DNA from: Candidatus Neomarinimicrobiota bacterium
Lineage (GTDB): Bacteria; Fidelibacterota; UBA8477; JABMPR01
Reading direction: 5' to 3'
DNA: 40,675 bases
Assembly (NCBI GenBank): GCA_034716895.1
Contig: JAYEKW010000085.1
Span: 1 to 40,675 of the forward strand
The notes beneath the pieces were generated by a model. It saw nothing but the letters and a program-made list of their open reading frames with translations. It was not told the origin of the DNA and did not search any database. The stretch's first letter is position 1. Every line of letters begins with the position of its first letter. This document shows positions 31,409-40,675 of this stretch, piece by piece. The position numbers and the translations under genes are program-made.

Positions 31409-32125
31409 CTAATTTGCAGGCCAGGCTGGTGGTTGACCTATCCCCTCTGGTACAGGGTCTTCGTCCTGGGACTGCAAGGCGATCCAGGTAATAATGGTCA
31501 TAACACCTACACTGCTGAGAAAAAGTCGAATTTCCGACTCTTTGATCCAGAGCTGCCATTTTTTCAACTCCTGATCTTCAAACAAACCTGGAGGTGCTGT
31601 CTGGTCAAAAATAGACCAAACTGCTTTCCGTACTTCCTGTTCAGCCTGCAGTTTTTGATCTGCAAGGGCGAATGTGGTAGTCCTTGCGGTCTCAGGGGTT
31701 TGTAAACTGTAAACAGATAGTGCTAATTGTCTATCGGTTGGAGTATCGGTCAGTTCCCAGATAAGTAAATCAGTCACCTCAAGATCAGTTGCATAAAGCA
31801 TAAAGCAGCTATCGGTAAGACACAGGCTATCATTTTCAAAGATCAAGGCCTGCTCAATTGGATCTTGAATTAGTGAAACGAGGTCATATTTAGTGATCTC
31901 AGCAGTAAGGATCGAATCGATGTTTATGGAAGGGATAACCGGACTTGTTCCCCTAACAATGGACATTACTGCAAATGTTTCCTCGATATTTTCACTAAAC
32001 AGCACTGAATCCAGATTAACCAGGTCCGTGGTGGTAGAATCAGAAAGGGAAACTATATTGCTGGTTGTGAGATCCTGAGCCCATGAAACTGTCAGATATA
32101 GAAGTATACAAACAAATATTCTCAT
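31409..32125 (-). CDS. Exported protein with one C-terminal membrane helix, partner of the giant surface protein
   Basis: A 238-residue protein with a signal peptide (MRIFVCILLYLTVSWAQ). The ectodomain is Ser/Thr/Asp-rich with one close cysteine pair in DSLCLTDSCFM (about 101-107). A basic helix (QELKKWQLWIKESEIRLF) leads to a single membrane segment (LSSVGVMTIITWIALQ, about 203-218) and a short tail ending QPPAWPAN. I do not recognise the family. The ATG overlaps the stop of the 2342-residue gene by 4 nt (ATGA), so both are translated from one mRNA. A membrane-anchor or assembly role for the giant is inference. Confidence 0.68.
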   Translation of the reverse strand: MRIFVCILLYLTVSWAQDLTTSNIVSLSDSTTTDLVNLDSVLFSENIEETFAVMSIVRGTSPVIPSINIDSILTAEITKYDLVSLIQDPIEQALIFENDSLCLTDSCFMLYATDLEVTDLLIWELTDTPTDRQLALSVYSLQTPETARTTTFALADQKLQAEQEVRKAVWSIFDQTAPPGLFEDQELKKWQLWIKESEIRLFLSSVGVMTIITWIALQSQDEDPVPEGIGQPPAWPAN

Positions 32126-35100
32126 CGGACTAATACCAACTTTCTAGTTGCCTGAAATCGTTGACCATTCCCCACCGGATCCAACATGATCCGATAAAAA
32201 TATATGCCAGAACTAAGTGATTTCCCCTGGTCGTTCAAACCTGACCAGGTGGCAGTGTAGGTCCCCATATCCCGTGTTTCATCAATCAGCGAGTGTACCA
32301 GGCGCCCCCTGATATCATAGATATCAAGCATCACTCTGGCCGGTTCCCTCAGACTGAACCCGATCTGAGTCGTGCCATTGAAGGGATTGGGATAATTAGC
32401 AGCCAGATCATTGCGTTCAGGAATGAAGCTCAACAACTTCTCAATTTGTTCAAATACCTGGTCAGATGGTCCACTGAGCAACTCATAGATGATGGGATAG
32501 TTTGCTGAAACATGCACCGGTTCCAGATCCAGATCCGAGTTAATCTCAAACCATTTCCGCTGCCGGGTATCCAACCCAACAATTACATGTCCTGTTGGCA
32601 GTTGACCATCCAGGATCAAGTCTATCTTTACATCCCGAAGGTCCTGCCCTACAGCCAGTTGCATAGACCATTGCTCAATTGTCTCACTGGCAGGTCTAAT
32701 GTCAGCCGCGAAGTGATTCAAGTTTGAATGGATCTTATTATTGAGTATGCTAACCCTGAGATAATCATCCCATACTGGTGGCTCAACTTGATCATATTTA
32801 TCTCGTTGAGCAGATGCTCCCAGACTTTGGCCGATCAGATTATCCAGATCAGAGAGAACCCCATTGGTGGCACTTATGTGTAGTCGCCAACTATCTGGAG
32901 GTCCATTAGATTTTGGCAAATTCTCCTGATCCCGGTGAGGATTTAAGTGGAGAAACTCCACGGTATCAGCCCAATTAAAGAGAGCATAGGCTGCCCAGGG
33001 TTTCAAGGTATCAGATTGAACCAGCCACCCTTCTCCATCATGATTTCCATAAGCATAGGGTCCGCTAAAGCGGTTTGAATCAATGTTACAAGTGATGGGA
33101 AAATTATAAGGTGAGCTAAACAAATTCCAACCAGGCTCCATTTCAAGCTCTACCCCAGTCAAATCAATGGAGCTTCCAGAACCGAGAACCAGATCGACCG
33201 GATCAGTCAAACGATGCTGAAACCAGTATCCCTGTCCCAGTTCAATGGTATCCGGTGTCTGCCAGTGCTCACCATCCCAATCATACAGCCGCCAACTTTG
33301 TTCGCCATGACTTTCACCCAGCGGTTCTTCCAGAACCTGGACCAGATCGGTTTCATCCTGCCTGGAAGGAATCGATACAAGTCTCCATTTGCCTGGGAGG
33401 ATTCCCTGGGGATAAGCAGGTGAGGTTGTAGTGGTCATGCTCAGACTGCCGGCATCAAATTTTACGGGGATTGATCGGGTATCAATAATTACACTATTTC
33501 CCTGAATATCAACAGCTTCAGCATGATAGCTCAAGCCCGTTTCAGCGACGGAAACAGCTGGGATCTCTGCTGCCCAAACCTGGGACCGTGTAATATTGTG
33601 CATTGGTACAGAGTCCATTTGACTGCTACCCCCGCTCTGATAGAAGAGCATGGCAGAGACAGGGATGTAGTACTCAGGAAAGGTGATCTCCAGGGCAATG
33701 GACTCCCCAACGCTCTGTGGCGTATTGCCAAAATCTGTGGAAACTACCTCTGCAATAACATTTACTCTGACACTAAGCGTATCCCATTCCGAGAATAGTT
33801 CACCATCAAAGACCCTCAACGATATTAAATAGTCGGTTGCCAGAGTGACCTGAGGGAGCAGTATTGTCGCAATGGCAGTAGTGGACTGTTGGAAAATGAG
33901 TTCCTGGGGTACCAGCCATTCGTATGATAGGGAATCACCATCAATATCATAAGAACCACCACCATCTATGTTAATGGTAGAGCCTGACAGGTATTCCAGG
34001 TCATCACCTGCCAGGGCAATGGGAGCATCATTAACATTTTGGATAACAAGCCCAAGGTCCAGGGTATCAGCGGCCTGATGAATATCAGAAACGATAAGCT
34101 GGATACTCAGCTCCCCCACATCAGCATTTTCGGGTGTTCCACTCAGGATGGCCATTGATGATGAGAGAGTCAGCCAATTTGGGTTATCATTTACAAAATA
34201 GCTCAAGCTATCGCCATCAATATCGATGGCCATTAAGTCATAGGTAAACAGGACTCCCTGTTGAGCTGTATCCTGGGCGCTGCTGGTAAAAACCGGGGCA
34301 TCATTTACATTTTGGACCGTCACCTGTAAATTGAGAGTATCAGAGGCTGATTCCGGGTCAAACACGAACAATGGAATTGAATATTCGCCTACATGAGCAT
34401 TTTCAGGGGTGCCACTAAGCATGTTGGTTGAACCCAGACTCAACCAATCAGGCAATTCACCGACCACATAGGTCAAGCTGTCTCCATCGAGGTCAACAGC
34501 AGTAACAATGTATTCGAACAGGAGGTCCTGGTGGGCTGTTGCCAATGCTGGACTGGTAAAGTGGGGCGCATCGTTGACGTCTCCCACCGCAATACTAAAG
34601 TCTTGAACAACAGGCGAATTCAGGCTCAAAGGATCTGCAACTGTGGTTTGTACCTGATGGTGCCCCACATCAGAATCACCGGGGGTACCAAACAACAGGT
34701 CCAGCCCATCAAAACTGAGCCAGTCCGGCAGTATGGTGGTATTGAACAGCACTGAATCACCATCAATATCAAGGGCAGTCATGTGATACTGGTAAAGCAC
34801 ATCCTGCTGGACCGTTAACTGGGGTGTACTTGTGAAAACAGGAAGGTCATTCACATTCTCCACAATGAGGTCCAATTCCAGTGTATCCCTTGCCAGTCCG
34901 AGATCTGAAACAATTGCGACGATATGATATTCACCAACATTTTCATTGAGCGGGGTTCCGGATAGGGTGTGGATCGAATCAAAGCTTAACCAATCCGGCA
35001 ATTCAGCGACTTGATAGCTTAAACTATCATTTGCATCTACATCGCTTGCAGTTAACTCAAAAATAAAAGGAATATCCTGAATGGCAGTGTCCAGATTCAA

Positions 35101-38100
35101 GCTGGTGAAATTCGGCCGGTCATTGGTATTAAGCACATCGATACTGAATTCCTGCCAGATCAGCGAATCTATTTCAGTCGTATCTGCCAAGGTAATCCGA
35201 ACCTGGTGGAGTCCAACATGGTCATTGGCCGGTGTACCACTAAGTTGGTTCAACCCGTCAAAACTGAGCCATTCCGGCAAATCTACAGCCTCAAATACCA
35301 GAGAATCACCCTCAACATCCGTGGCGCTTATTTGATACTGATAAGTGGCATCCTCCAGTACTGTCAACTCAGGGGTGCTGACAAATTCAGGCAAATCATT
35401 GAGGGGCATAATCTGGAGGTGAACTGTTGCTGTATCGGAGTAGAGTTCTCCATCAAAGGCTACATATTTCAGGGAATCGAGTCCATTGAAGTTGAGAATA
35501 GGTTGATATAATAGATCTATAAATGTACCATTCTCAGGAGCCTGGGTGAGGGTAAAAGTCAGCTCATCAAGCTCTATATCAAAACCTGAAAAAGTGATCT
35601 CCAAACTACTATCTTCATCAAGACTCAGGGTTTGCGTAAGGGCCTGCGGGGCATCATTGACGGGAAGCACACTAAATTGAATATTCTGAAAAGCATTCAA
35701 GGCTGAGTTGTCAATCCGCTGTACTTCAAGATTGAGAGTTTCAGATCCAAACCAATTCTCATCTGGGATAAGGACACTTAACTGATGGGCTTCATTGATG
35801 GTAGGCTGAAGACTTTCATCACTTGACACATACCAGTTAACCTCCTCTGGTTCAGGGAATTGCAGATAGTCATCTAATGAGATTATGGTGAAGTTTCCCC
35901 CCTCATCAATTTCTTGATCAGAAATAGTCAGAAAGCTTGGAGATGTTTGGGGTAAGACCGTGAAATAGACCTGGGTTGAATCCAGATATTCATTCGGCGT
36001 GTTCACATCTCGGGCAAAGATTTTAATGACTTCTGTGCCGGTCCATTCAGGATAGGCATGGGAAGGCAACAGGATCGATTCTGTTAAAAATTCTAAATTT
36101 AGATTTTGGGCTGTGAGCAATTCAGGGTCATCCGGTGACCCAATAACTGCATTGCTCATAAACGTGTAATTCTCATGGATGATCAAGGTATCCTGGCGGT
36201 CAGCATCATAAATTCTGAGTTCAAGTTCCTCATCATTTGTGTTTCCATAGATGGTCAGGAAGTATAGTGAATTTTCACCAACAACAACTGGTTCAGCCAG
36301 ACCATGGCAATCATCTCCTGAAAAGACAGCCAGAATATTCTGGGATGAAACAGAAGGTACACTGCGCAGGGTAAGCATGGCAGTTAAGGACATATTATGT
36401 TCAAAATCTGCAGGATTCACGACCCAGTCAGGGCTCCCAATTGGTTCCAACGCGGTTGCGTATGAATATGACCAGGCAATTTGATCCCCGTCCTGCTCTA
36501 AAAGGAATTGGGATAAATCCAGGGACAGGAACTCACCACCAATACCAATGGTATCGTTGGGAATCATGGAAATCTCTGGAGCATGATCTACAGGAATGAC
36601 TGTAAATATTGCTGAATCACTGGAGAAGAGCTCATTTGCGGTGACATCAGTTACGATAAAGGTAAGGGTCTCATTCCCCACCCACTGGTCATCAACGACT
36701 GAAACAGTTACTGTCAGATCAGGATTAATCAGAGCTGATAGATTTGTTTCTCCTTCAATTGACCACACCAGGTCATCGCCATCAAGTTCTGTCAAGTGGT
36801 CATTCAGATCGAAGCTGGCAAAACTGCTACCGAGTTCAATCAACTGATCAGGTATGCTACTCACCAGGGGTGTATGATCCTCTAAAATGGTAAATGAAAC
36901 CAAAGTAGAATCGGCAAACTGGTTCTCAGTCCCCATATCCCGGGCAGTAAACCAAACATTCTCAGTTCCGGACCAGATGGGATCCAGAGCAGATATTTCA
37001 ACTTCATCACTGGCATTGATGTTTAACTGGATGAATCCAGCAGTCATTGAGTAGGGTGTTTCAGGGGCTCCGACTGATGTGGCAGGCTCAAAGAAAATTG
37101 TTTCCAATATGGGCATATCCAGAGCTATCGCTCCATCATAAAGTCGGAAGTTAAGCCCTTCCCCACTCCCATTGGCATAAATGGTCAGGAAAAATAACCA
37201 CTCCTCACCAAAAGCAACTGGCGTAACAAACCCACGACATTCTTCACCGACAAAAGCAGCTAATGAATAGTTATTATGAACCAGGTCAAGTCCACGACTG
37301 CTTACACTTGCCGTAAGGGTCATATCTGATTCATAGTCAGCAGCATTAACATACCAGCTTGGTATTGGGTCTGTTTCAAGGGGGGTATCAAAACCATAGG
37401 ACCACTGGATTGAATGTCCATCTACTTCAGTTAGATAATCATTTAAAATGATATCTGAGAAATCACCACCATTCCCAATCAGCTGATTGGGGATATCACT
37501 CACAACTGGTGCATGATCGATAGGTAAAATCGTAAAAACTACTGTATCTGAACTACTGAATTGATTGTCATTGTCATCAGTCACAGTAAAAATAACTGTT
37601 TCACTTCCGGTCCACTCTTCATCAAGTGGTGTTACGCTGACCAAAAACTGAAAGTCAAAATCTACAAAAAGATTCTCATCACCGGAAATAGACCAAATGA
37701 CTTCATCCCCATCCAATTCAAGGAGAAAATGATCAAGATCAAAAATGGTGAAGGATTGCCCCAGCTCAACAGTCTGATCACTAATACCAGAGACCAGAGG
37801 CGTATGATCTGGAAGAATGGTAAAGCTGGTACTCGCTGAATCGCTATAGGAATTGAGTGTGCCTATATCCTGAGCAAAGAATTGAATCGTTTCTGTACCG
37901 GTCCAAGTGGGGTCTACCACAGTTAAAGATGCTTGATTGTTTGAATTGATATGAGAAATGATGTATCCAGCTTGCAGTTCAACCGGCACTTCGGGGCTGC
38001 CGATTGCTGTACCGGTTTGAAACTGAATTTGTTCCAGAATGGGTAGGTCAAGTTGACTGCTCGCATCATAGAGTCTTAGATCAAGGGTTTCGCCATCGCT

Positions 38101-39150
38101 ATTGGCATAAATGGTTAAAAAGAAGGTCAACTCACCCAGGGCTAACACTGGGTTAACAACACCGCGACATTCATCATCGACAAACGCAGCGAGTTGGTAA
38201 TGTTCTGTGAGTACTTCTGCTCCACGGCTGCTTACCATTGCTGTGAGGCTCATGGTTCTGTTGTAGTCAGCAGGTTCGAGACTCCAGACAGGCACTGGAT
38301 CTGTCGCTCCAGATGCCAAAAAGGCCAGGGACCAGCCAATGGAATCGCCATCTTGTTCAATGAGATAGTCAGCCAGATCAATCGTTGCGAATGAACCACC
38401 ATTGCCAATGGTTTGAGCTGGAATAGCAGAAATCTCAGGGGGATGATCCATGGGTAGTATGGTAAACAGGGCTGTATCCTGACCAGCATACGCAGAATCT
38501 GTCTGGTCAGTAGCCGTAAAGAAGAGTGAATCAGTCCCGATCCATTCGTTGTCGATTGCTGCAATAGTTACGACATTGTCTATATCGAGGGAAACTGAAA
38601 GATTTGGACTGTTTGTACTGCTCCAGGTGACCATATCGTCATCTAGCTCAGTCAAATGATTATCAAGGTCAAAGCTGGTGAATAAACCACCTATTTCAAT
38701 GACTTGATCAGAGATACCTGTTACAATCGGGGCGTGATCAAAAAACACGATTGCATTTAATCCATACGGTTCAGTGGGAGTTCCGTATTCAGCGCCAGGA
38801 ATAAAGTCAATTGATTCGTTAACAGTAATAACGGTATCCAGGACAGCAATATAAGTTTTAAGTGTGAGTACTTCAGTGTTCTGATTAGAATACATCGTGA
38901 GAAAAAAGAGTTGCTGCTCCCCCATGGTTACAGGGGAAACTACACCACGACATTCTTCACCAACGAAAGCGCCTAGAATATCATTGGGGTCCGTAGTGGG
39001 CACATGATCAATATGGAGAATAGCAGTCATGTTCGCTGAATTTTGATAGTCAGCAGGGATTACATCCCAAGTAGGAATTTCACGTGTAAAGACCTGGCCA
39101 ACCAGGACAAGCTGGAGGATGAGTATCAGAATTAAAGCTCTTCTATTCAC
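32122..39150 (-). CDS. Giant multidomain surface protein (2342 aa) with Ig/cadherin-like repeats and NYPNPFN sorting domain
   Basis: GTG start with GGGGA about 9 nt upstream and signal peptide 1-22. Residues 26-137: a stand-alone module centred on AFVGEECRGVV. Residues 138-1067: three super-repeats of exactly 310 residues, each a 97-residue Ig-like domain followed by a 213-residue domain that carries the same module inside it. Residues 1068-1164: one more 97-residue Ig-like domain. 1165-1250: a VCBS/cadherin-type domain (NDAPQALTQTLSLDEDSS). 1251-1706: five dystroglycan-type cadherin (He_PIG) repeats of 90-92 residues with LPDWLSF, LSGTP and calcium-type DxDGDSL motifs. 1707-1800: PKD-like. 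1900-2240: domains with GWNLFSSP phrases. 2248-2342: sorting domain with ANYPNPFNGTTQIGFSL and SSGIYFYR. Probably exported by a type IX-like system and displayed on the surface, acting in adhesion or polymer binding. Confidence 0.88.
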   Translation of the reverse strand: MNRRALILILILQLVLVGQVFTREIPTWDVIPADYQNSANMTAILHIDHVPTTDPNDILGAFVGEECRGVVSPVTMGEQQLFFLTMYSNQNTEVLTLKTYIAVLDTVITVNESIDFIPGAEYGTPTEPYGLNAIVFFDHAPIVTGISDQVIEIGGLFTSFDLDNHLTELDDDMVTWSSTNSPNLSVSLDIDNVVTIAAIDNEWIGTDSLFFTATDQTDSAYAGQDTALFTILPMDHPPEISAIPAQTIGNGGSFATIDLADYLIEQDGDSIGWSLAFLASGATDPVPVWSLEPADYNRTMSLTAMVSSRGAEVLTEHYQLAAFVDDECRGVVNPVLALGELTFFLTIYANSDGETLDLRLYDASSQLDLPILEQIQFQTGTAIGSPEVPVELQAGYIISHINSNNQASLTVVDPTWTGTETIQFFAQDIGTLNSYSDSASTSFTILPDHTPLVSGISDQTVELGQSFTIFDLDHFLLELDGDEVIWSISGDENLFVDFDFQFLVSVTPLDEEWTGSETVIFTVTDDNDNQFSSSDTVVFTILPIDHAPVVSDIPNQLIGNGGDFSDIILNDYLTEVDGHSIQWSYGFDTPLETDPIPSWYVNAADYESDMTLTASVSSRGLDLVHNNYSLAAFVGEECRGFVTPVAFGEEWLFFLTIYANGSGEGLNFRLYDGAIALDMPILETIFFEPATSVGAPETPYSMTAGFIQLNINASDEVEISALDPIWSGTENVWFTARDMGTENQFADSTLVSFTILEDHTPLVSSIPDQLIELGSSFASFDLNDHLTELDGDDLVWSIEGETNLSALINPDLTVTVSVVDDQWVGNETLTFIVTDVTANELFSSDSAIFTVIPVDHAPEISMIPNDTIGIGGEFLSLDLSQFLLEQDGDQIAWSYSYATALEPIGSPDWVVNPADFEHNMSLTAMLTLRSVPSVSSQNILAVFSGDDCHGLAEPVVVGENSLYFLTIYGNTNDEELELRIYDADRQDTLIIHENYTFMSNAVIGSPDDPELLTAQNLNLEFLTESILLPSHAYPEWTGTEVIKIFARDVNTPNEYLDSTQVYFTVLPQTSPSFLTISDQEIDEGGNFTIISLDDYLQFPEPEEVNWYVSSDESLQPTINEAHQLSVLIPDENWFGSETLNLEVQRIDNSALNAFQNIQFSVLPVNDAPQALTQTLSLDEDSSLEITFSGFDIELDELTFTLTQAPENGTFIDLLYQPILNFNGLDSLKYVAFDGELYSDTATVHLQIMPLNDLPEFVSTPELTVLEDATYQYQISATDVEGDSLVFEAVDLPEWLSFDGLNQLSGTPANDHVGLHQVRITLADTTEIDSLIWQEFSIDVLNTNDRPNFTSLNLDTAIQDIPFIFELTASDVDANDSLSYQVAELPDWLSFDSIHTLSGTPLNENVGEYHIVAIVSDLGLARDTLELDLIVENVNDLPVFTSTPQLTVQQDVLYQYHMTALDIDGDSVLFNTTILPDWLSFDGLDLLFGTPGDSDVGHHQVQTTVADPLSLNSPVVQDFSIAVGDVNDAPHFTSPALATAHQDLLFEYIVTAVDLDGDSLTYVVGELPDWLSLGSTNMLSGTPENAHVGEYSIPLFVFDPESASDTLNLQVTVQNVNDAPVFTSSAQDTAQQGVLFTYDLMAIDIDGDSLSYFVNDNPNWLTLSSSMAILSGTPENADVGELSIQLIVSDIHQAADTLDLGLVIQNVNDAPIALAGDDLEYLSGSTINIDGGGSYDIDGDSLSYEWLVPQELIFQQSTTAIATILLPQVTLATDYLISLRVFDGELFSEWDTLSVRVNVIAEVVSTDFGNTPQSVGESIALEITFPEYYIPVSAMLFYQSGGSSQMDSVPMHNITRSQVWAAEIPAVSVAETGLSYHAEAVDIQGNSVIIDTRSIPVKFDAGSLSMTTTTSPAYPQGILPGKWRLVSIPSRQDETDLVQVLEEPLGESHGEQSWRLYDWDGEHWQTPDTIELGQGYWFQHRLTDPVDLVLGSGSSIDLTGVELEMEPGWNLFSSPYNFPITCNIDSNRFSGPYAYGNHDGEGWLVQSDTLKPWAAYALFNWADTVEFLHLNPHRDQENLPKSNGPPDSWRLHISATNGVLSDLDNLIGQSLGASAQRDKYDQVEPPVWDDYLRVSILNNKIHSNLNHFAADIRPASETIEQWSMQLAVGQDLRDVKIDLILDGQLPTGHVIVGLDTRQRKWFEINSDLDLEPVHVSANYPIIYELLSGPSDQVFEQIEKLLSFIPERNDLAANYPNPFNGTTQIGFSLREPARVMLDIYDIRGRLVHSLIDETRDMGTYTATWSGLNDQGKSLSSGIYFYRIMLDPVGNGQRFQATRKLVLVR
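34033..35400 (-). repeat. Five tandem dystroglycan-type cadherin-like repeats in the giant gene
   Basis: Protein residues 1251-1706 divide at ND(L/R/A)P(E/N/V/H)F boundaries located at 1251, 1343, 1434, 1526 and 1616, with the array ending at 1707. Unit lengths are 92, 91, 92, 90 and 91 residues. Each has a mid-unit LP(E/D)WLSF-type phrase and an LSGTP or LFGTP turn. Residues DVEGDSL, DLDGDSL and DIDGDSL suggest calcium sites. The DNA copies are diverged, so this is an old expansion. Confidence 0.85.
35949..38739 (-). repeat. Three 930-bp super-repeats encoding nested Ig-like domains
   Basis: Boundaries at DHAPIV (138), DHTPLV (448), DHTPLV (758) and the corresponding position at 1068 give three units of 310 residues each. 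Inside each, a second boundary (DHPPEI 235, DHAPVV 545, DHAPEI 855) splits it 97 + 213. The excess of 116 residues in the long half matches the size of the CRG module (copy at 26-137 is 112 residues). The module sits after the W-S position of the domain, and the domain resumes at D(P)xW(T/S)GTE. Confidence 0.85.
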
Positions 39151-39472: not shown

Positions 39473-39535
39473 GATATTCGCTCACCGAGTGATCCTGACG
39501 CTTTTGTCAGGATCGTATTGAGGTGAGCGAATATC
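39473..39535. repeat. 63-bp nested palindrome abutting a stop codon
   Basis: Outer arms GATATTCGCTCACC (39473-39486) and GGTGAGCGAATATC (39522-39535) are a perfect 14-bp inverted repeat. Inner arms GATCCTGAC (39491-39499) and GTCAGGATC (39506-39514) are a perfect 9-bp inverted repeat with loop GCTTTT. The right outer arm ends on the stop codon of the partial gene. It may act as a transcription end or mRNA-stabilising hairpin for that gene; there is no U-tract. Confidence 0.85.
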
Positions 39536-40675
39536 TATTTCAACATCAACATCTTCTTCACTTCACGGAAGCTGCCGCTTTGCATGACCACCAGGTAGAT
39601 GCCTGAGGTCATGGGTCGGCCGGCATCATCCAGGCTATTCCATTCTACAAAACGATAGCCGGCTGTCATATCCTGATCTATCAGGGTGCGTATTTCCTGA
39701 CCCAGCAGATTGTAAATGCGGATACTGACATGTCCATCCTCTGGTAATCCAAAACCCATGGTTGTTACAGGGTTAAAGGGATTGGGATAGTTCTGACTTA
39801 AGCTATAAGTATCAGGGATGTATCCGGCATCACCAATGCCCAGATAACGAGCACCCCAGATAAAGGGTTCATCTACATTACCGATGATATCGTTGGGAAC
39901 AAACACTAAAGACTCTTCTATATAGAGTTCTTCATCTGAATCAGCATCGTATGCCCTAAAAATGACTGGGTCATTTTCATCAGCGCTGCCATAAACCGTC
40001 ATGAAGACCATGTGTTGATCTAAAGCCTCGATGAAGACGGGTTGGGCCACACCACGACACTCATCACCTACAAATGCGCCGATCATATCGAAAGCATCTG
40101 TGGAAACTGAATCATGCGTGAACAACAGACCGGTGATATTCATCGAGAACTCATAGTCCTGTGCACGGACGACCCAATCAGGTGTTCCATCAAGGAGTTG
40201 AGTTGTAAAATCAGCCTGATCGACAGCTTTTGCCAGGGGTTGATCCATGAATGGATAGATCAATTCTCCTTCATTGAGAGAACTCAATAGATAGCCTAAC
40301 TGAGGATCCAGATAAGTTAAATTACCCAACCATCCAATCCCCTCCACATACTGTGCATAAGCAAACTGACTTTTGATCAAGTCACCTGTGGTAGCAGGTA
40401 GCGTTTCCAGGGCATAATCAACTGGATAGCTGACTTGAGGTAAATAACCGATCCAGTTCCAACCGCTTGATACAGCGATTGTATCCAGTTCAGGATCAAC
40501 TTCATATCCGACAAACATGAGTGTATCTGATTCAGCAATTTTTAGCTGGTACATACTTTCATTCCTGATTGTATCCAGCGTGCCGACCCAGTCAAATCCA
40601 TCCACATACATGGAGAATGAGGTTTGGTCTTTAATCAGATCATTGCCAGTGAGATTCATGAACTGAGTCACGGAA
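39535..40675 (-). CDS. Secreted protein with CRG module and NYPNPFN sorting domain (5' end beyond window)
   Basis: The frame is open to the window edge, so the N-terminus is missing; about 379 residues are seen. Numbering from the GTG at 40671, two copies of a TG(N)DLIK(S/D)Q...Y..G..W.G.L repeat lie at about 8-55 and 95-141, flanking GWNWIGYLPQ. Residues 163-276 are a copy of the module found four times in the giant (DWVVRAQDYEFSMNIT, GAFVGDECRGVAQPV, VFMTVYGSA). Residues 288-378 are a C-terminal sorting domain: SLSQNYPNPFNPVTTMGF, IRIYNLLGQEIRTL, MTSGIYLVVMQ, ending KKMLMLK. It is likely a surface or released protein using the same export route as the giant. Its own role is unknown. Confidence 0.85.
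   Translation of the reverse strand, partial: SVTQFMNLTGNDLIKDQTSFSMYVDGFDWVGTLDTIRNESMYQLKIAESDTLMFVGYEVDPELDTIAVSSGWNWIGYLPQVSYPVDYALETLPATTGDLIKSQFAYAQYVEGIGWLGNLTYLDPQLGYLLSSLNEGELIYPFMDQPLAKAVDQADFTTQLLDGTPDWVVRAQDYEFSMNITGLLFTHDSVSTDAFDMIGAFVGDECRGVAQPVFIEALDQHMVFMTVYGSADENDPVIFRAYDADSDEELYIEESLVFVPNDIIGNVDEPFIWGARYLGIGDAGYIPDTYSLSQNYPNPFNPVTTMGFGLPEDGHVSIRIYNLLGQEIRTLIDQDMTAGYRFVEWNSLDDAGRPMTSGIYLVVMQSGSFREVKKMLMLK

Follow-up and report, generated by a model that had tools for sequence, protein, structure and literature searches.

A putative surface rod protein of a Neomarinimicrobiota bacterium with one module nested in every second Ig-like domain

Results

The stretch of DNA analyzed here, called the window, is the 40,675-nucleotide contig JAYEKW010000085.1 (assembly GCA_034716895.1) of a Candidatus Neomarinimicrobiota bacterium. 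It carries a gene on the minus strand (32122–39150), as are all window features described below, that starts with GTG and encodes a 2342-residue protein, here called the rod protein. The order of its parts is a signal peptide, a free-standing module termed CRG, a rod of seven immunoglobulin (Ig)/cadherin-like units, a stalk of Big_9 and He_PIG domains, and a type 9 secretion system (T9SS) type A sorting tail. Four units are short and uninterrupted (S1–S4, 97 residues) and three are long and split (L1–L3, 213 residues). They are arranged S-L-S-L-S-L-S, and each S plus L forms a 310-residue superrepeat. The stalk (He_PIG, Big_9 and tandem-95) and the sorting tail match Pfam/NCBIfam models, whereas S, L and CRG have no match above cut-off.

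The signal-peptide-like N terminus (residues 1–22; 39085–39150) was judged by eye from the sequence, with no predictor, and the free CRG module that follows (residues 24–137; 38740–39081) was identified by a CRG profile match. The rod consists of S1 (residues 138–234; 38449–38739), L1 (235–447; 37810–38448), S2 (448–544; 37519–37809), L2 (545–757; 36880–37518), S3 (758–854; 36589–36879), L3 (855–1067; 35950–36588), and S4 (1068–1164; 35659–35949). The nested CRG modules lie at about 37960–38310 in L1, 37030–37380 in L2, and 36100–36450 in L3, where CHG replaces CRG. Unit starts define all seven units. They are joined by sequence identities for S1, L1 and S4, by the S-domain profile described below for S1 through L3, by the CRG profile for L1, by AlphaFold2 for S2 through S4, and by Foldseek for L2. 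The stalk of Big_9, He_PIG and PKD-like domains (residues ~1165–1800; 33751–35658) has a unit spacing of 86–92 residues, derived from Pfam/NCBIfam matches and unit starts, and the sorting tail occupies residues 2253–2342 (32125–32394).

Translation of the gene places the unit starts at residues 138, 235, 448, 545, 758, 855, 1068 and 1165, which gives spacings of 97/213/97/213/97/213/97 residues, exactly as claimed in an earlier note made from the sequence of this stretch. The same note described substantial divergence at unchanged spacing, and the ungapped protein comparison agrees: the superrepeats are 37–51% identical without an indel. L1–L3 are 41–51% identical in pairs, S1–S3 are 44–50% identical, and S4, the most diverged, is 26–33% identical to the other S units. 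At the DNA level the L and S units are 43–58% identical. The repeats are old, diverged copies, and their likeness is not due to chance.

The note had also proposed that CRG is nested in a loop of an Ig-like domain, and four agreeing lines of evidence bear this out. A profile of the uninterrupted 97-residue domain was built from the S units of five relatives. It matches every L unit twice, with profile positions 1–41/48 at the head (independent E values 9e-11 to 6e-12) and 44/49–96 at the tail (3e-4 to 1.5e-7), and CRG lies in between. The matched parts amount to ~45 residues at the start and ~49 at the end of each 213-residue unit. An AlphaFold2 model of residues 448–1164 (five domains, 20 sequences) had a mean confidence (pLDDT) of 90.0 and a predicted template modeling score (pTM) of 0.49. 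Elements of S2 run through 12–15, a helix at 25–28, 37–42, 47–51, 56–61, 68–78 and 85–95. L2 repeats this series at 109–112, a helix at 122–125, 134–140, then CRG, and then 260–264, 269–274, 281–291 and 299–309. In the model CRG lies in a hairpin, after the third element of the host fold and before the fourth, and the outcome that would have spoken against nesting, a CRG in series with the Ig fold left incomplete, was not seen. The top Foldseek matches to the five-domain model were tandem cadherin ectodomains (E 4e-14 to 1e-8). The alignment to N-cadherin EC1-5 (3q2w) covered 541 residues over 773 columns, and the excess of 232 columns equals 2 × 116. We read this excess as probably the two CRG inserts, from column counts and not from displayed alignments.

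The fourth line comes from another host domain. A protein of genome G057 (locus L043) has a CRG that splits the Pfam domain Big_9 into a head (positions 2–31) and a tail (39–88), and the joined pieces match at E=3.9e-16. A second G057 protein (L047) has the same split, with a joined E value of 1.1e-16. These data together identify a real insertion of CRG into a host beta-sandwich that is completed after the module, and it has probably arisen at least twice, or else passed from one host to another. The units of the window are not themselves Big_9 (PF17963) members: the S units score 15.8–17.9 bits against a cut-off of 23.6, and the joined L units have no Pfam match, so membership is not claimed for them. 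In both G057 genes (L043, 2412–8957; L047, 3730–10281) CRG directly follows the ND.DxD motif of the Big_9/tandem-95 domains, and the CRG pitch in L043 is 303/303/306.

The CRG insert is ~116 residues long, and AlphaFold2 predicts it from 107 members as eight strands with a pLDDT of 93.5. Lone CRG modules, which the note had placed at the N terminus of the rod protein and in the neighboring protein, were both recovered by profile matches. Outside Ig domains the module also occurs as four tandem copies in Prevotella. Pfam scans of the 107 members gave only scattered matches with E≥0.01, and a profile search of the PDB gave none that was significant. The arginine and the glycine of the motif are near-invariant (104/107 and 103/107) and the cysteine is present in only 74/107 members, so 'RG' would be a better label than 'CRG' on these sequences. 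A wider search of genome contigs for relatives of CRG and the rod used an alignment of four close L2 units as the query. In Bacteroidota, CRG is found in Prevotella, Muribaculaceae, Pontibacter, Flavobacteriales, Flammeovirga and Aureibacter.

The spacing was compared across relatives, where the note had claimed strict length retention. The claim is exact for three orthologues within the genus (G009, G013 and G015; 77, 57 and 50% identity to the rod protein), which have 97/213 in every unit. Their S1–S4 regions show zero gaps across 236, 442 and 519 substitutions, compared with 3, 6 and 6 gaps in the rest of the gene. Fisher tests of this contrast gave p=0.013 for G013 and p=0.0003 for G015, and it was not significant for G009 (p=0.30). 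A fourth relative, G039, has 2 gaps in the rod versus 21 in the rest of the gene (p=2e-6, Fisher). Strict retention does not extend to distant relatives. Across all relatives the L length is 213 in 24/33 units and 212, 215, 219 or 221 in the remainder, and the S length is mostly 97 and otherwise 95, 96 or 100. An 8-residue insertion in L1 of G039 and G243 lies inside CRG. The 97+213 pattern, which the note suggested looking for in related genomes, recurs with near-constant lengths in a Cloacimonadota metagenome-assembled genome (MAG; L085) and in a MAG titled Bacteroidetes (L084). The loosest spacing seen, 97/213/100/213/95/219, is in L071 (7221–19001; G219), where the rod lies within a frame of >3900 residues (5322 reported). 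From these sequences the 97/213 spacing appears strongly conserved but not absolutely constrained. Retention of length within a folded domain is also expected from a plain fold constraint and alone is no proof of a fixed rod pitch; the fixed pitch of a rigid rod is a putative feature.

Relatives L074 and L075 have one superunit (CRG-S-L-S), and the window and most complete relatives have three. A tree was built from 34 L units. Within the genus, units of the same position (L1, L2 or L3) fall together, the group of L3 units also takes in L3 of G072, and L1 groups with L2 at a support of 100/99. By this clustering the triplication is older than the genus. The three units of the Cloacimonadota locus L085 group with one another (94/91, short of the tree program's star). 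This leaves one ancient triplication unproven, and later amplification or homogenization is possible. The one-unit and three-unit forms and the clustering by position thus support duplication of a two-domain unit, as in the note's proposal, but a single ancient event goes beyond the tree.

The sorting tail of the rod protein scores 30.1 bits against the TIGR04183 cut-off of 23. The host genome was searched for the T9SS components SprA and PorU. It has a relative of SprA (SprA_N, 119 bits, above cut-off) and a relative of PorU (693 bits, cut-off 420). The tail and these two relatives support export of the rod protein by a T9SS, as judged from sequence. Pfam and NCBIfam scans gave no RTX family match, and the C terminus is the T9SS sorting tail rather than RTX nonapeptide repeats with a type 1 secretion system (T1SS) signal.

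Upstream of the rod gene lies a 379-residue open reading frame (ORF; 39535–40674) that is the 3' end of a giant LamG protein gene, identified by profiles and contig overlap, and encodes a CRG (39841–40200) and a T9SS tail. It runs on into contig C242 (G000), whose first 268 bases equal the end of the window (40408–40675), so that the two contigs adjoin inside the gene. The C242 part encodes a signal peptide, LamG-type regions, a CRG and a GWNW-type region; the second CRG and the sorting tail come from the window part. LamG was identified by Pfam in the L075 homologue. In the giant proteins the two CRG modules are separated by a tandem ~70-residue 'GWNWxGY' region, which has no Pfam match in the 379-residue ORF. 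The CRG-to-CRG distance of 304–323 residues in these proteins was considered as the same Ig-pair spacing and rejected as a coincidence, since the stretch between them is the GWNW-type region with no Ig pair.

The pair formed by an upstream gene ending in CRG plus tail and a gene that directly follows and starts with CRG was scored 34 times, or about 27 without duplicate loci, a count reduced by hand. It occurs in Neomarinimicrobiota, Cloacimonadota and Bacteroidota as a large surface protein, often with LamG, followed by a companion with an N-terminal CRG. On two annotated Bacteroidota plasmids the genes are named 'LamG' and then 'T9SS type A sorting domain-containing protein'. The upstream partner at L088 is without LamG. 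The companion varies after its CRG, with seven cadherin domains in Pontibacter, InlB-type repeats in a Porphyromonadaceae MAG, and four tandem CRGs in Prevotella. The first of these, from the cultured strain Pontibacter oryzae (L098, 7932–10952), ends in a CHU_C tail. Companions of four tandem CRG modules are found in Prevotella/Bacteroides (L101, 9513–11036; L107; L109), and that of L101 has no Pfam match. The companion relation of the rod protein to the giant LamG protein is indicated by genome context alone.

Downstream of the rod gene, a 238-residue ORF (31409–32125) begins with an ATG that shares bases with the rod gene's TGA stop (ATGA). Its product resembles a secreted or membrane protein. 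Relatives at the same position in G009, G013 and G039 are variable and share a hydrophobic segment, and comparison of the window protein with its G039 relative shows an IGxPPxWP-like C-terminal end in both.

Discussion

We read the rod protein, with somewhat better than even confidence, as a T9SS-exported, periodic split-domain surface protein with CRG nested in L1–L3, a putative multivalent adhesin or docking scaffold. Sequence and prediction show seven tandem cadherin/Ig-like domains after the N-terminal CRG. In L1–L3 the chain exits the host domain after the third secondary-structure element, forms the complete ~116-residue beta-sandwich of CRG, and re-enters to finish the host fold. The host domains may be stacked end to end as in cadherins, with three CRGs budding sideways, one per second domain, and a fourth capping the distal N terminus. 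The Big_9/He_PIG stalk and the C-terminal sorting tail would keep the protein at the cell surface. CRG would be the binding unit, and the giant LamG protein of the adjacent upstream gene would be the partner of the rod. The split Ig domains of RTX adhesins project ligand-binding domains, and by this rule CRG is a candidate binding unit and the protein a candidate multivalent rod, by analogy and not by membership.

Several observations weigh against this reading. The pTM of 0.49 leaves the relative orientation of the domains uncertain. Foldseek with the CRG model found no PDB match at E≤0.001, so no lectin assignment is made for CRG. Below that level of significance the best match was FimA fimbrillin, and the others were a pyrogallol transhydroxylase subunit, CBM41, intradiol dioxygenases and pVHL, which we take to be transthyretin-like or CBM-like (carbohydrate-binding module) sandwiches. 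The rod is also present in only 4/19 genus genomes, the window's own counted, and matches at E≤1e-20 in 15/245 genomes of the phylum sample. This distribution makes the rod an accessory trait.

The CRGs could instead be homotypic or heterotypic assembly interfaces and not binders of an outside ligand: those of the rod would pair with CRGs of the giant LamG protein or of adjacent rods, and a lattice or fibre would form on the surface. We consider this unlikely but a serious contender. The two genes of a pair conserved across three phyla each carry CRG, and the best weak fold match, FimA, is a self-assembling protein; that match is not significant, however, and the Pontibacter companion with one CRG and seven cadherin domains argues that multivalency is no general need. 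That the CRGs are inert bulk or spacers retained by repeat duplication, with length conservation reflecting a well-packed fold only, is improbable. Unit copy number does vary (one or three) and the rod occurs only here and there in the genus, but the RG motif is conserved, the spacing is near-constant in MAGs outside the phylum (Cloacimonadota and Bacteroidetes), and CRG is nested repeatedly in two host folds.

A series of beads on a string, in which CRG is an ordinary serial domain and the apparent half domains on either side are just short, unrelated stretches, is very improbable. CRG does stand in series at the rod N terminus and in the Prevotella tandems. The model was rejected because both head and tail of L match the uninterrupted S domain, the AlphaFold2 strand series agrees with this, as does the alignment by Foldseek to five cadherin domains, and Big_9 is cleanly split in G057. 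The chance that the repeats are an artefact of assembly, by collapse or expansion, is close to nil. The window does come from a draft of 258 contigs, but the diverged DNA of the copies and the presence of the same three units in four separate genus assemblies led us to set this explanation aside.

We offer a broader reading more tentatively than that of the rod protein, at slightly less than an even chance. CRG may be an undescribed beta-sandwich family that marks a two- or three-gene surface system across the Fibrobacterota-Chlorobiota-Bacteroidota (FCB) group. This system would comprise a giant T9SS cargo, often with LamG, and a rod or other companion with an N-terminal CRG, joined in Neomarinimicrobiota by a small membrane protein. 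Repeated nesting of CRG into different Ig hosts would, in some lineages, have produced rods that carry docking modules at a constant interval. In literature searches, neither this LamG system nor nested Ig adhesins of Marinimicrobia turned up. The split-domain rule for spotting ligand-binding modules of adhesins would no longer be limited to RTX/T1SS proteins but would also cover surface proteins of the T9SS type in uncultured marine phyla. CRG is a concrete, expressible candidate binding module without a Pfam family. Its free, tandem and nested forms, the last in two Ig hosts, make the origin of a domain insertion directly comparable, and the cultured carriers Flammeovirga, Aureibacter, Pontibacter and Prevotella open the gene pair to testing.

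Among known systems, the RTX adhesins MpIBP, FrhA and AhLap have split Ig-like domains that project ligand-binding domains off axis (PMC10865825, PMC12077191). Like the rod protein, they are long proteins with an Ig-like domain interrupted in sequence by a complete module and with extender domains between the split domains. They differ in their T1SS export, where the rod protein is T9SS-type, and in carrying varied modules in a ligand-binding region, where the rod has the same module three times, in every second domain. The split in FrhA is 12 + 106 residues, whereas that of the rod is near the middle (about 46 + 49), and its module, CRG, is no known CBM, PA14 or vWFA. Cadherin ectodomains such as N-cadherin (3q2w) are the best fold match to the five-domain model and share short D-x-x-P linkers between domains, but they are only about 10–12% identical to the rod and have no nested modules. 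The tandem-95/Big_9 repeats match the S units weakly (E 0.006–0.026), and the CRG host of the G057 relative is a bona fide Big_9, but no S unit reaches the curated cut-off and the joined L units give no match. The likeness to T9SS type A cargo lies in the sorting tail, above the TIGR04183 cut-off, and in the SprA and PorU relatives of the genome. Splitting an Ig domain to project a module is known from bacterial adhesins; what is new here is a T9SS-type, multivalent and periodic version with a module absent from Pfam.

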